From Deltaproteobacteria bacterium RBG_13_61_14 (GTDB lineage: Bacteria > RBG-13-61-14), in NCBI GenBank assembly GCA_001797815.1, contig MGQK01000017.1, positions 15,561 through 34,354 on the forward strand: a stretch of DNA of 18,794 nt, written 5' to 3'. Under the pieces are notes generated by a model. The model did not search any database. It had not been told where the DNA came from and saw only the letters and a program-made list of their open reading frames with translations. The position numbers and the translations under genes were made by a program. Shown piece after piece: positions 1 through 15,972 of the stretch; position 1 is the stretch's first letter, and each line of letters starts with the position of its first letter.

Positions 1-831
1 GAGCAGATGGAGCGCACCCTCTACAACGCGATCCTCTCCGGCATCTCCCTGGACCAGCGCCGCTATTTTTACGGCAACCCGCTCGCCTCCCACGGCGAGC
101 ACGAGCGCCGGGAATGGTTCCTGGTGGCCTGCTGCCCGCCCAACCTCGCCCGGGTCCTGGCTTCACTCGAGCGCTACCTCTACGGGCAGAGCGAGGACGG
201 CGTCTGGGTGCATCAGTATGTCGGCGGCAGGGTCCGCTTCCCGCGGCCCGAGGGCGAGGCGGCGCTCCGGGTCGAGAGCGGATTCCCCTGGCAGGGCCAG
301 GCGCGGCTGCAAATGGAGGTGGAGCGGCCGATGCGCTTCGCCCTGCGCCTGCGGGTGCCGGCCTGGGCGAAGCAGGCGCAGGTCCGCGTGAACGGGAAGG
401 CGGTGGAGGAAAAAGCGGCGCCGGGAACCTACGCGGTCCTTGACCGGGACTGGCAAAGCGGCGATGTGGTGGAGCTGGAATTCCGGATGGAAACGGAAGC
501 GGTCTTTGCCCCGCCGCCGGTGAAAGAGAACCGGGGCCGGGCGGCGATCATGCGCGGCCCGCTGGTGTATTGTCTGGAGGACAAGGACAACGCCGCGCTG
601 GACGTGCATCGGCTGGGCCTCAGCCGGGATCCGAAATTCAGGACCGAGGCTGAACGCGGACTCTTAGAAGGGGTAACCCTGGTGAAAGGACTCACCGCCA
701 CCGGCCAAGAGTTTGTCGCCATCCCCTATTACGCCTGGGGCAACCGCGGCCGGGCGAACCTGGCCGTCTGGTTAATTTGGGGTCAGACCCCAAATGTTAG
801 ATTAAGCGGCGAAGAGGAGGAGGGATCATGA
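1..831 (+). CDS. GH127 beta-L-arabinofuranosidase (DUF1680), C-terminal part, 5' truncated by window
   Basis: The reading frame is open from base 1, so this is the last 276 codons of a longer gene. The family removes L-arabinofuranose from plant-type glycans. The fragment starts in the conserved ERTLYNAILSGISLD segment and then shows YGNPLAS and ACCPPNLARVLASL. In characterised GH127 enzymes that Cys-Cys pair binds zinc and includes the catalytic cysteine; here the codons are at 130-135. The other zinc ligands lie upstream, outside the window. The beta-sandwich tail follows (LRLRVPAWA, RGPLVYCLE, IPYYAWGNRG). The natural end is probably near LAVWL. The last residues, IWGQTPNVRLSGEEEEGS, are encoded by a palindromic repeat (772-805) and the next gene's ribosome site. 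The stop overlaps the following start as ATGA. Family assignment is secure; exact substrate is inferred. Confidence 0.88.
   Translation, partial: EQMERTLYNAILSGISLDQRRYFYGNPLASHGEHERREWFLVACCPPNLARVLASLERYLYGQSEDGVWVHQYVGGRVRFPRPEGEAALRVESGFPWQGQARLQMEVERPMRFALRLRVPAWAKQAQVRVNGKAVEEKAAPGTYAVLDRDWQSGDVVELEFRMETEAVFAPPPVKENRGRAAIMRGPLVYCLEDKDNAALDVHRLGLSRDPKFRTEAERGLLEGVTLVKGLTATGQEFVAIPYYAWGNRGRANLAVWLIWGQTPNVRLSGEEEEGS
772..805. repeat. Palindromic repeat, 7-base-deleted copy of the 3162-3202 element
   Basis: The core ATTTGGGGTC-A-GACCCCAAAT (775-795) is a perfect inverted repeat around base 785. It is followed by GTTAGATTAA, identical to the right arm of the element at 3162-3202. The left arm reads TTAAT then TTGGGGTC, so it lacks the seven bases CTAACAT present in the other copy. 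The repeat lies inside the 3' end of the GH127 frame. None of its remaining stops (773, 798, 803) is in that frame, so translation reads through. Confidence 0.85.
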
Positions 832-2399: not shown

Positions 2400-3170
2400 A
2401 TGCGGACGCGAAGGACTAAATCGGACCGGACCCTGATCGGGATCACGCCGGACTTTGATCCGGCCGAGAAGATCCCGGTGCGGGCCCCGGGCGAGGGCAC
2501 CCTCTACCTCAAGGACCGCTACGTCCGCGCTTTCACCGATCTCGGCGCGGTGCCGGTGATCCTGCCCCTCCTGGCCAAGCCCGGGCTGATCGAGGGAATG
2601 CTGGAGCGGCTCGACGGTGTGGTCATCTCCGGCGGCGGCTTTGACATCCACCCCCGCCATTACGGCGAAGAGCCGATTGCACCTTTACATAGCATCAAGG
2701 AAAACCGCACCGACTTCGAGTTCGAGCTGTTGCGCCGGGCGCTCCGCCGCGACTTGCCGGTGCTCGGCATCTGCGGCGGCATGCAGGCGATTAACGTGGC
2801 CTTTGCCGGCAGCCTCTACCAGGACCTCGCCCGCCAGCGGCCGGAAAGCCTGCCCCACCAGCAAGAGGCCCCCAAGACCCAGCCTTCCCACTCGGTAACC
2901 GTGACGGCCGGCACCCTGCTGGCCCGAGTCCTGGGCCGAAAGAGCCGCGAGCGCGTGCTCCAGGTCAACAGCACCCATCACCAGGCGGTCAAAGAACTGG
3001 GCCGCGGGCTTCTGGTCAACGCCCGCTCGGAAGACGGCCTGGTCGAGGCCATGGCCAGTGTCAAGCACGGCTTCGTGCTCGGCGTGCAGTGGCACCCCGA
3101 GGTGATGGTGCCCGAATACCCGGAGCAAGTCCGCCTCTTCCGCGCCTTCGTGGCCGCCGCCTTAATCTAA
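2400..3170 (+). CDS. Peptidase C26 / gamma-glutamyl hydrolase-like class I glutamine amidotransferase
   Basis: This 256-residue protein belongs to the PuuD-like group, which hydrolyses gamma-glutamyl amides such as gamma-glutamyl-GABA. It shows the N-terminal GITPDF, the oxyanion-loop region VVISGGGFDIHPRHYGE, the nucleophile elbow LGICGGMQAINVAFAG (Cys125), the NSTHHQAVKELG segment, and VQWHPE with His232 and Glu234 completing the triad. The preceding gene ends 63 bases upstream. No strong ribosome site is visible before the ATG at 2400, so the start is somewhat uncertain; the conserved fold begins near residue 11. The stop codon (3168-3170) lies inside the palindrome at 3162-3202, which supplies the final residues. 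Other members act on folate polyglutamates or on gamma-glutamyl polyamines, so the substrate is open. Confidence 0.87.
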   Translation: MRTRRTKSDRTLIGITPDFDPAEKIPVRAPGEGTLYLKDRYVRAFTDLGAVPVILPLLAKPGLIEGMLERLDGVVISGGGFDIHPRHYGEEPIAPLHSIKENRTDFEFELLRRALRRDLPVLGICGGMQAINVAFAGSLYQDLARQRPESLPHQQEAPKTQPSHSVTVTAGTLLARVLGRKSRERVLQVNSTHHQAVKELGRGLLVNARSEDGLVEAMASVKHGFVLGVQWHPEVMVPEYPEQVRLFRAFVAAALI

Positions 3171-3202
3171 CATTTGGGGTCTGACCCCAAATGTTAGATT
3201 AA
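3162..3202. repeat. Perfect 41-base palindrome with stop codons in all six frames, between convergent genes
   Basis: Arm TTAATCTAACATTTGGGGTC (3162-3181), centre base T3182, then the exact reverse complement (3183-3202). Plus-strand stops begin at 3163, 3168, 3182, 3195 and 3200, covering all three frames. By symmetry the minus strand is covered by stops starting at 3201, 3196, 3169 and 3164. The C26 gene ends on the plus-strand TAA at 3168-3170, and the convergent TPR gene ends on the minus-strand TAA at 3201-3199. It may also act as a bidirectional transcription terminator, but no U-tract follows the stem. It resembles REP/RAYT-type palindromes; that family link is inferred. Confidence 0.93.
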
Positions 3203-5172
3203 CGGACGCGGTGTCTGGGGCGGGTCGGCCCAGGGGCGGGTCCTATTTTGATCCGGAGTTGATACATCTCCACCGCTTCCGGGCTGTCCGGGGCGATTCG
3301 CAGCACCGCTTCGATCTGGGCACGCGCCCGGCGCTGGTCTCCCATCTGGTAAAAGATCTTGGCCAGGTTGGCGTGCACTTGCACGTTGCCGGGTTCCCGG
3401 CGCAAGACCGCTTCCAGAGCGGCTACGGTCTCGGGGATCTGCTGGCGCAGGAAATAGACGCGGGCAATGTTCTTGAGGTAAAGGGTCTGGTCCGGGTTCA
3501 GGCGCGCGGCCTGGCGGTAATGGGCCAGGGCGTGGTCCAGGTCCTGCCTTTGCTCGGCCAGGTAACCGAGGTTGTTGATCACCGAGGCGTTGCGCGGTTC
3601 CAGGCGGCGGGCTTGGCCGAGCAGCGCCTCCGCCTCGGAGAATTGCTGACGGCGCAGGTCCACCGTGGCCAGGTAATTGAGGGCGAGCGCGGAATCGGGC
3701 CGGTCGCGGATCGCGGCCTGGCAATAACCCGCGGCATCGGTCAGCTCCGCCTGGCGGCTGGTCAGGGCGCAGAGATAAAAAAGCACTTCCCATCGGTCCG
3801 GCGCGTCCTTCTGAAGCGAGTCCAAGAAGGACTTGGCCGCGTCCAGTTGTCCTTGCGCAAGCGCCGTTTCCACCAGGGCCAGGCGGACCTGAAAATCATC
3901 GGGGAAGCGGGCCGCGGTCCGCACCAGGAGGGCCCGGCCGGCCTGTCCCTGGTTCTCGGCGATCAGGGCCAGGCCCAGGTCTTGCCAGGCGAGCGGCGAT
4001 TCCGGGAAATTGGAGACCTGCCCTCGCGCCCGGTCCAACTCTTTTTGATAGGTCCAGGCGCGTTCGGCGCTCAACCCCAGGAAACAGAGGGCGGCGATGC
4101 CGCACACCAGGGCCGCCACCCGGGTGGTGGTCTCGGGAAAAAACGATTCCATCCGCAGGCGGCGGATGATGCCATAGCTGAAAAACGAGAGCAGCAAAGG
4201 ACCGGCGAGATAAATACCGGGAAGCTGCCAGAGAGGGATGGCCGCGCCCAGCAGGCCGAGTAAATAGACGACATGCCAGAACCAGTGAGGCGGTTGAGAA
4301 GGGCGTGCAGAAAGGCGGGGGCCGAACCCCCAGGCGAACAGCAGGACGGCAAAAGCCAACGCTAAAGCCAAGAGCCAAGACCAGTTCCAGTGCGGGTTGG
4401 GGAAGAAAGCGGCGACCAGGGTCAGGACCCGGACCTCGCCGGCGACGGGATGGAGCAGAGCGGAGCGGAAAAAGTTTCCCCACGACTCGCCCAAGCCCAG
4501 GCCCAGAGCCAGGTCCACCAGGGAGACGAGAAAGAGCAGGACCAGGACTTCCCAGTTGCGCGGGACCGGCCGGGCCTGGAAGAGGATGGGCCAGGTGAGA
4601 GCGGCAAGCACGACCATGGCCGCGGGATGACAGCCCAGGGCGAGGAGGTAAAAGAGCACCCCGAAGAGGAGCGAGGCGGGCTGCTCGTGTTCGTCGGCCA
4701 AGGCGCGGCGGAGGAGGAGGAAGGCGATGGTGGCCCAGAAAGCGGCGAGGAGGATGGGACGGGTGAAGGCATTGGCGATGAGGTCGTTAAGGAAGGGGTG
4801 AAAGGCAAAGAGTGCGACCGGGGGCAGGATTTCCCAGAGCGCGTCCTTGCGGCGGAGCAGGTCCTGGAGGTCTTCTCCGGCCAGGACGAGGGCGAGGAAG
4901 AGGACCAGGGAGGAGACCAGGAAGAAATTGACCAGTCGGAAGCTGAGCGGGTTCGGGCTGAGGCGGTGCTGCTCGGCCAGGGACCACCAGCCCAGGAACT
5001 CTCCGGGCGCCCTCTGGAACAGGGACCAGTGATCCAGGGAGCGCAAGCTGGCGAAGGGGGCGGCGAGGATCTCGCGGTCGAGGCCGTGCCAGGGTGAATA
5101 AGCGGCCGGGAACAGGACCAGGCAGGAGACGATCCAGACCGCGGCCAGGAAAATCCAGAATTGCAGACGCAT
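3199..5172 (-). CDS. Polytopic membrane protein with C-terminal TPR repeats (possibly TMTC/GT-C-like)
   Basis: The predicted protein has 657 residues. It begins MRLQFWIFLAAVWIVSCLVLF, the first membrane segment, and continues with about ten hydrophobic segments to roughly residue 370. From about residue 385 to the end it is a run of tetratricopeptide repeats, for example SVINNLGYLAEQRQDLDHALAHYRQAARLNP, followed by further copies. Many membrane segments followed by a TPR domain is the architecture of TMTC-type protein O-glycosyltransferases and of related bacterial proteins, but I see no decisive catalytic motif. The frame stays open upstream to 5583, but that stretch overlaps the CPBP gene, so the ATG at 5172, with GGAG just before it, is preferred. 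The stop codon lies in the 3162-3202 palindrome. Membrane/TPR call is firm; enzymatic role is unproven. Confidence 0.85.
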   Translation of the reverse strand: MRLQFWIFLAAVWIVSCLVLFPAAYSPWHGLDREILAAPFASLRSLDHWSLFQRAPGEFLGWWSLAEQHRLSPNPLSFRLVNFFLVSSLVLFLALVLAGEDLQDLLRRKDALWEILPPVALFAFHPFLNDLIANAFTRPILLAAFWATIAFLLLRRALADEHEQPASLLFGVLFYLLALGCHPAAMVVLAALTWPILFQARPVPRNWEVLVLLFLVSLVDLALGLGLGESWGNFFRSALLHPVAGEVRVLTLVAAFFPNPHWNWSWLLALALAFAVLLFAWGFGPRLSARPSQPPHWFWHVVYLLGLLGAAIPLWQLPGIYLAGPLLLSFFSYGIIRRLRMESFFPETTTRVAALVCGIAALCFLGLSAERAWTYQKELDRARGQVSNFPESPLAWQDLGLALIAENQGQAGRALLVRTAARFPDDFQVRLALVETALAQGQLDAAKSFLDSLQKDAPDRWEVLFYLCALTSRQAELTDAAGYCQAAIRDRPDSALALNYLATVDLRRQQFSEAEALLGQARRLEPRNASVINNLGYLAEQRQDLDHALAHYRQAARLNPDQTLYLKNIARVYFLRQQIPETVAALEAVLRREPGNVQVHANLAKIFYQMGDQRRARAQIEAVLRIAPDSPEAVEMYQLRIKIGPAPGPTRPRHRVR

Positions 5173-12868: not shown

Positions 12869-13498
12869 TCAACTTCCCGGCGGCTTTTTCCAGGTGCCGC
12901 CCGATTCCACCCGCGACCTCACGTTCTTCACCACCTGGACCAGGTTCGGCTTGGAAATTTTTCGGCCGAGCCAATCCGGGATAGGCAGACCCGGGTCAAT
13001 GAAAATCGAGTAGGTCAGCACGGTCCCTTGTCCGTCTGGCGCATCATCGAATACCCAGAAACCCCGCGTGTCGTCCACGTCGTTCGGCTGGTTCGGGTCC
13101 AGGGAAAAGACGATCCGGCGAAATTTTTCCACCCCCACCAATTGGAGGTGATAAACCACCATCATCCCCAGCACTTCGGTATGATACCGGACCCAGTAGC
13201 TCTCGCCCTCCTGCTTGAAGGTCCGGCACTCCCGGACCCGGGGAAAGAACTCGGCAAAGCGGTTGTAGTCGCGCATCACGGCCCAGACCTCCTCCCGCGG
13301 GGCCTTGATCCAGGCCTTGACCACCACGTCGGTAGTCTTGGATCCGTCGGGCTTGGTGGAGAAAACCTCGGTGGCCACCACTTCGCCGGTCTTCATCACT
13401 TCCCATTCCTGGACGGTATATTCGGCCCGGGCCGGCCGGGCGAGGCAGGTGCCGAGCCAAATTCCCAGAGTCGCCAACCCGATTAGCCTGGCCTTCAT
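12869..13498 (-). CDS. Secreted START/SRPBCC-domain protein, tandem paralogue 2
   Basis: This 209-residue protein has a signal peptide (MKARLIGLATLGIWLGTCLA, likely cut after ARPARA). The 184-residue mature part has the START/polyketide-cyclase helix-grip pattern: APREEVWAVMRDYNRFAEFF, WVRYHTEVLG, RRIVFSLDP, GFWVFDDAPDGQGTVLTYS and a C-terminal amphipathic helix NLVQVVKNVRSRVE. Such domains bind a hydrophobic ligand in a cavity. It lies 24 bases downstream of its paralogue and 38 bases upstream of araB. By hand alignment the mature parts match at about 116 of 184 positions without gaps, so this is an old tandem duplication. Export to the periplasm is predicted. The ribosome site is weak (GAAGAAG), which fits coupling to the upstream gene. 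Ligand unknown. Confidence 0.83.
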   Translation of the reverse strand: MKARLIGLATLGIWLGTCLARPARAEYTVQEWEVMKTGEVVATEVFSTKPDGSKTTDVVVKAWIKAPREEVWAVMRDYNRFAEFFPRVRECRTFKQEGESYWVRYHTEVLGMMVVYHLQLVGVEKFRRIVFSLDPNQPNDVDDTRGFWVFDDAPDGQGTVLTYSIFIDPGLPIPDWLGRKISKPNLVQVVKNVRSRVESGGTWKKPPGS

Positions 13499-13522: not shown

Positions 13523-14143
13523 TCAACTCCCGGCCGGCTTCTTCCAGGCGCCGCCTGACTCCACCCGCTGCCGCACATTCTTGAGCACCTGGATCAGGTT
13601 GGGCTTGGAAATCCTGCGGGCGATGACCTGGGGCACCGGAATGCCGGTCGCCACCAGGGCCGAATACGAAAGCACGGTCCCCTGGCCGTCGGGGGCATCG
13701 TCCAGCACGTAGTAGCCCCGCGCCTCCCGGATGTCGTTGGGCTTCAAGCGGTCCAGGTCGAACTCGATCCGGCGGTATTTCTCTTTGCCCATCGTGATCA
13801 GGTTGTAAATCACCTGGATCCCCAGCACTTCCATGTCATAAACGATCCAATAAGCCTCGCCGTCCTGTTTCGTAATCCGGCAACTCCGCACCCGGGGCAT
13901 AAACTCCCCGAAGTGGTCGTAGTCCCGGATCACCTTCCAGACGTCTTCGGGGGGACCCTTGATCCAGATTTTCACCAGCACATCCGTAGCCTGGGTCCCG
14001 TCCGGCTTGGGCGTGAAGACCTCGGTCGCCAACACCTCGCCGGTCTTCAGGACTTCCCATTCTTGAGGCGTAAATTCCGCCCAGGCCGGCGGCCGCGGGC
14101 AGGTTACCAGCAGGAATCCAAGGATTAGGGTCCATCGCTTCAT
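13523..14143 (-). CDS. Secreted START/SRPBCC-domain protein, tandem paralogue 1
   Basis: This 206-residue protein starts MKRWTLILGFLLVTCPRPPA, a signal peptide with likely cleavage after AWA. The mature 184-residue domain (EFTPQEWEVLKTGEVLATEVF, GPPEDVWKVIRDYDHFGEFM, YDMEVLGIQVIYNL, YYVLDDAPDGQGTVLSYS) is a helix-grip START fold and aligns end to end with the next gene. I chose the ATG at 14143 because GGAG precedes it and it begins exactly at the signal peptide; in-frame ATGs at 14176 and 14212 lack a ribosome site. It is the first gene of the minus-strand run and is divergent from the acyl-CoA synthetase at 14280, with a shared 136-base promoter region. A ligand such as a lipid or hopanoid-like molecule is speculation. 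Confidence 0.83.
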   Translation of the reverse strand: MKRWTLILGFLLVTCPRPPAWAEFTPQEWEVLKTGEVLATEVFTPKPDGTQATDVLVKIWIKGPPEDVWKVIRDYDHFGEFMPRVRSCRITKQDGEAYWIVYDMEVLGIQVIYNLITMGKEKYRRIEFDLDRLKPNDIREARGYYVLDDAPDGQGTVLSYSALVATGIPVPQVIARRISKPNLIQVLKNVRQRVESGGAWKKPAGS

Positions 14144-14176
14144 GGTCTTGCTCCGCAGGTTCAAATCTTTCCGCAT

Positions 14177-14203
14177 CTTATAATTTTTTTCGAGTAATGT
14201 AAA
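14177..14203 (-). promoter_or_regulatory. Candidate promoter for the START-protein genes
   Basis: On the minus strand TTTACA (14203-14198), a 15-base spacer and TATAAG (14182-14177) lie just upstream of the first START gene. The spacer is short, so this is a weak call. Confidence 0.25.
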
Positions 14204-14222
14204 CCGACTCAAGTAAGAAAAT

Positions 14223-15860: not shown

Positions 15861-15972
15861 AGGCATTAGTCATTAGGCTTTAGGCATTAGGCTTCTATTT
15901 CATTATGACGATCTGAATAGACGCTCTTCTCTTTTCCGAAGCCTAAAGTCTAAAGCCTAATGCCTAAAGCCT
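15861..15972. repeat. Long hairpin built from TTAGGC-type heptad repeats
   Basis: The arms 15861-15895 and 15938-15972 are 35 bases each and pair at 31 of 35 positions across a 42-base loop. Each arm is made of near-identical seven-base units such as ATTAGGC and TTTAGGC. The element starts four bases after the ligase stop and ends just before the ribosome site AAAGGAG (15981-15987) of the DJ-1/PfpI gene. It may partly terminate transcription or stabilise the upstream message. No ORF is present in it. Confidence 0.82.

Follow-up and report, generated by a model that had tools for sequence, protein, structure and literature searches.

A palindrome that ends two convergent genes is probably a mobile REP/MITE-like repeat of the Y1 transposase kind

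The window analyzed here, a stretch of 18,794 nt from Deltaproteobacteria bacterium RBG_13_61_14, contains a 41-bp palindrome (positions 3162-3202) in which two convergent genes find their stop codons. We consider this palindrome, with a probability of roughly 85%, to be a non-autonomous REP/MITE-like mobile repeat, namely the solo terminal inverted repeat (TIR) of an element encoding a RAYT/TIRYT-kind Y1 (HUH) transposase. Its core, GGGGTCWGACCCC, together with the arms would fold into a single long hairpin, which the transposase probably recognizes as single-stranded DNA, presumably with a strand preference, pasting copies around the genome. Copies arriving within a gene's final codons or immediately after its end would survive selection, and those elsewhere in genes would be removed. 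A gene running into a long-arm copy would end inside it because no frame is free of stops in the AT-rich arms (TTAATCTAA / TTAGATTAA); at 3162-3202, one such copy would have landed between convergent genes and given both of them their stop codons. The odd double-stop palindrome is thus most likely ordinary selfish DNA, and a clear example of small repeats that shorten the ends of genes.

The palindrome is perfect, as stated in the preliminary description; its 20-nt arms (3162-3181 and 3183-3202) are 100% complementary around a 1-nt centre (TTAATCTAACATTTGGGGTC-T-GACCCCAAATGTTAGATTAA). It belongs to a long-arm subfamily, and the conserved segment at its middle, GGGGTCTGACCCC (3176-3188), is common to copies in many phyla and to the ends of Y1-transposase elements. 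All three frames are closed on either strand, as had also been claimed: the + strand carries TAA at element positions 2 and 7, TGA at 21, TAG at 34 and TAA at 39, and the - strand carries TAA at 2 and 7, TAG at 34 and TAA at 39. The gene of a Peptidase C26/gamma-glutamyl hydrolase-like protein (2400-3170, + strand; Pfam Peptidase_C26, PF07722, E 1e-61) stops at the left-arm TAA at 3168-3170, element position 7. The gene of a membrane protein with Pfam TPR repeats (3199-5172, - strand; start codon provisional) stops at the right-arm TAA at 3201-3199, element position 2 on the - strand. The last two C26 codons (TTA ATC, encoding LI) and the stop are element sequence, and in the TPR gene the stop in the element adds no residues to the protein.

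It had been suggested that both genes lost their own ends when the element inserted. The C26 protein is close to full length, and 16 of its 17 homologues continue for 2-9 residues beyond the aligned end (query residues 251-255) before reaching their own stops, the alignment of the seventeenth (L254) reaching residue 236 only. The homologues therefore stop further on and not at the identical residue. Since they are 2-9 residues longer and the window protein has LI in this place, the element has probably taken the place of a short, variable C26 tail of at most a few C-terminal residues, as judged from these alignments. The suggestion thus fits the C26 gene on the + strand; the insertion as such stays conditional, because the core is wholly absent from both same-order genomes, which hence provide no empty site for comparison. 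For the TPR protein, no orthologue was close enough for a C-terminal comparison. A thiolase (L229) and a biotin-carrier protein (L232) likewise had near-full-length ends.

The near-full-length C26 protein is also what would be expected if native gene ends had formed the palindrome by chance or if it were an assembly artifact. However, about 44 copies are dispersed through the genome and share a constant core, against 0 in the control, and the identical core occurs in many phyla, which makes this explanation extremely improbable. The copies were surveyed in the source genome (4.74 Mb, 132 contigs) by pattern searches, retrieved stretches and a purpose-built gene caller that was trained on the genome's own codon usage. 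The core GGGGTCWGACCCC had 23 exact occurrences; for the 19-nt core TTTGGGGTCWGACCCCAAA there were 5 exact matches, and 43 when up to 3 mismatches were allowed. Reversed-pattern controls gave 0 every time. Within the window, the 19-nt core occurred twice against 0.01 expected. The palindrome is hence not single-copy apart from a second window copy at 772-805, and the table of about 44 dispersed copies, which includes one probable chance match, bears out the earlier label of a REP-like element: it is a short extragenic palindrome, nearly all copies being intergenic or at gene ends. The probable chance match, C65:80119, consists of CGGGGTTGACCCC inside a gene and was judged not to be a copy. Copies carried either long arms of the window type (TTAATCTAAYATTT) or short TTAAC(A/T)T arms, and one-armed and degenerate copies were also present. 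Longer composites of 206-305 bp with the long-arm ends of the palindrome were found at C121:19059-19264 (L209), C113:50113-50348 (L223) and C70:15978-16282 (L206). Nested within the first of these composites is another inverted repeat (TGTTGCCCAAA/TTTGGGCAACA), and this composite is MITE-like.

A search for an encoded RAYT transposase, as had been proposed, returned 19 Y1_Tnp (PF01797) matches in the genome. Two of the proteins (L022 and L024) scored above the cut-off of the NCBIfam model REP_Tyr_transpos (NF047646), and the other own proteins tested matched below it. At least 11 of the genome's Y1 genes lie between inverted ends of the form GGGGTC(AG)...(CT)GACCCC, about 1.02-1.05 kb apart, and GGGGTCAG, present both in the core and in these element ends, conforms to the GGGGWSAS motif. 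L022 lies between palindromes GGGGTCAGGCCCC with TTAAC arms, the type of the genome's short-arm solo copies. In most of the own Y1 elements, the inner sequence after GGGGTCAG differs from that of the solo palindromes, and the assembly yielded no transposase gene whose ends are exactly of the long-arm type (TTAATCTAAC). Most own Y1 copies examined have an HUH motif (HYHL, HFHL or HVHL) near residue 62. For a C-terminal HTH, there were weak, sub-threshold matches only (L032, Bac_DnaA_C, E 0.009; L026, HTH_1, E 0.002, and HTH_23, E 0.13). A further Y1 transposase gene of the same genome, L031 (C41:44225-44545), is associated with a different, 33-nt inverted repeat (AGCTTGGTGTCAGACACTGACTTATGACTTAAG), the core of which (GTGTCAGACAC) is an analogue of the GGGGTCAGACCCC palindrome.

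Copies of the repeat are strongly biased toward gene 3′ ends. According to the codon-usage gene caller, on which these own-genome counts rest, 20 of the 41 3′ ends that face a copy lay inside it or within 12 nt of its core, compared with none of 45 such 5′ ends (Fisher p = 1.5e-8). A control that needs no annotation gave the same picture: of 45 own copies, 22 contained the end of an ORF of at least 150 aa, the rate at shifted positions being 5.4%, and for copies from other genomes the corresponding figures were 38 of 139 and 5.9%. Because the enrichment is also present in the other-genome copies, the bias is family-wide and independent of six-frame stops. Under the mobile-repeat reading, selection against copies elsewhere in genes may be its cause. 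REPs affect mRNA 3′ ends, and together with this bias and a very stable, symmetric hairpin (RNA fold of -26 kcal/mol, z about -9), this would also suit a bidirectional transcription terminator or mRNA 3′-end stabilizer that is kept for its RNA hairpin, its stops being incidental. We regard such a role as unlikely. The palindrome was not listed in a terminator scan and has no T-run after its stem, copies are found in divergent gaps as well, and not only the pairing but the very sequence of the core is invariant, which points to recognition by a protein. Rfam gave no match in the window.

The preliminary description had alternatively viewed the element as a compact stop module kept at convergent gene junctions. 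All nine own copies with both long arms have stops in all six frames, as would be expected of a dedicated module selected for translation stops, but these nine lie near one consensus, so that the retained stops may reflect common descent. Six-frame stops characterize the AT-rich long-arm subfamily of this genome; none of the 141 copies sampled in other genomes had them. Both neighbouring genes are ended by one copy in 2 of 44 cases only, the window copy and C123:47734 (L230); both are convergent junctions and speak for a module, but only about 5 of the 44 copies are convergent at all, the remainder including 6 divergent and 30 unidirectional ones. The claim of a stop module was consequently not supported, and we consider selection for this function very unlikely. 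In the long-arm copies, the stops used by genes coincide exactly with element stops, with all three frames represented: position 2 (L219, L228, L213 and the window - strand), position 7 (L203, the - strand of L230 and the window + strand), and the centre TGA or the far arm (L208 and L226). This is the pattern expected for random insertion of an all-frame stop into gene ends.

The second window copy (772-805) likewise argues against a stop module. It is 34 nt long and lacks 7 nt of the left arm, and one + frame is open and is used by a GH127-family gene, the 3′ part of which occupies 1-831 (+ strand); the six-frame property is therefore not kept there. The GH127 protein reads LIWGQTPNVRL through the copy and extends about 18 residues beyond the region matched by its family models. 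The gene, which continues through this degenerate copy, has a terminal ATGA (828-831) that overlaps the start of an acyl-CoA ligase gene.

Outside this genome, at least 116 stretches, drawn from many phyla, contained the core, and its arms were specific to each genome. Ten Y1 ORFs were located near the palindrome in such stretches, and nine of them were flanked by it on both sides, often with the arm type of that genome, the tenth (L095) being cut by a contig end; these loci were chosen for holding the palindrome, which biases proximity but affects the two-sided bracketing much less. These findings allow the tentative proposal, to which we give slightly less than even odds, that the GGGGTCWGACCCC palindromes form one pan-bacterial REP-like superfamily mobilized by group-1-type RAYT/TIRYT transposases, with a fixed core and genome-specific arms, that has repeatedly rewritten host C-termini and stop codons.

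TIR-flanked Y1 transposases and REP-supplied stop codons are already known. Di Nocera et al. (2013; PMC3733652) described Y1 transposases flanked by GGGGWSAS terminal inverted repeats (TIRYT/TIRtrons) and solo TIR families, some of them self-complementary; they also reported that flanking ORFs often take their stop codon from the termini of GTAG REPs and that convergent REPs lie within 20 bp of both 3′ ends. Most TIRYT were later equated with TnpA_REP subclass 2.1, i.e., RAYT group 1 (PMC6006769, 2018), and related enzymes act on single-stranded hairpins (PMC8266576). The elements studied here resemble TIRtrons in their Y1 genes of about 1 kb, their inverted repeats with GGGGWSAS (here GGGGTCAG), their long proteins and their solo TIR families, and possibly in a C-terminal HTH, for which the signal here is weak. 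They differ in that the solo copies are full-arm perfect palindromes built on GGGGTCWGACCCC and spread across many phyla, and in that all six frames are closed in the long-arm subfamily. They also have a REP-like repeat, whereas no REP-like sequences were reported beside subclass 2.1 genes (PMC6006769). With the GTAG REPs of RAYT groups 2/3 (REPtrons, REPINs) they share short extragenic palindromes, pairing with an HUH transposase, the bias toward gene 3′ ends and termini that give stop codons. In contrast to GTAG REPs, none of the own copies has a GTAG/GTRG tetranucleotide 5′ of the palindrome, where TTAATC- or TTAAC-type arms occur instead, and the repeat is a near-perfect palindrome with a 3-nt loop, genome-specific arms and a fixed core. 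Like MITEs of IS elements, they are non-autonomous, have ends matching those of a full-length element and form 206-305-bp composites with these ends, but most copies consist of a single palindrome and not of two separated ends. The literal core sequence had no match in the literature searched. The present case adds a perfectly palindromic form, its broad distribution and, in this genome, arms with stops in every frame. It also ties a very widespread palindrome with a fixed core to transposases for which the partner repeat had been described only loosely, and the pairing of core and transposase becomes testable in vitro.

Two other repeats were observed in the window. An imperfect inverted repeat with TTAGGC/TAAAGCC-type units, 35-nt arms and a 42-nt spacer (15861-15972) starts 4 nt after the stop of an AMP-ligase gene (gene end 15857). 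In addition, the adjacent genes at 12869-13498 and 13523-14212, which encode small, similar, probably secreted proteins, form a tandem duplication; close to their 3′ ends, a stretch of 106 nt is 80% identical between the two (repeat family D1).
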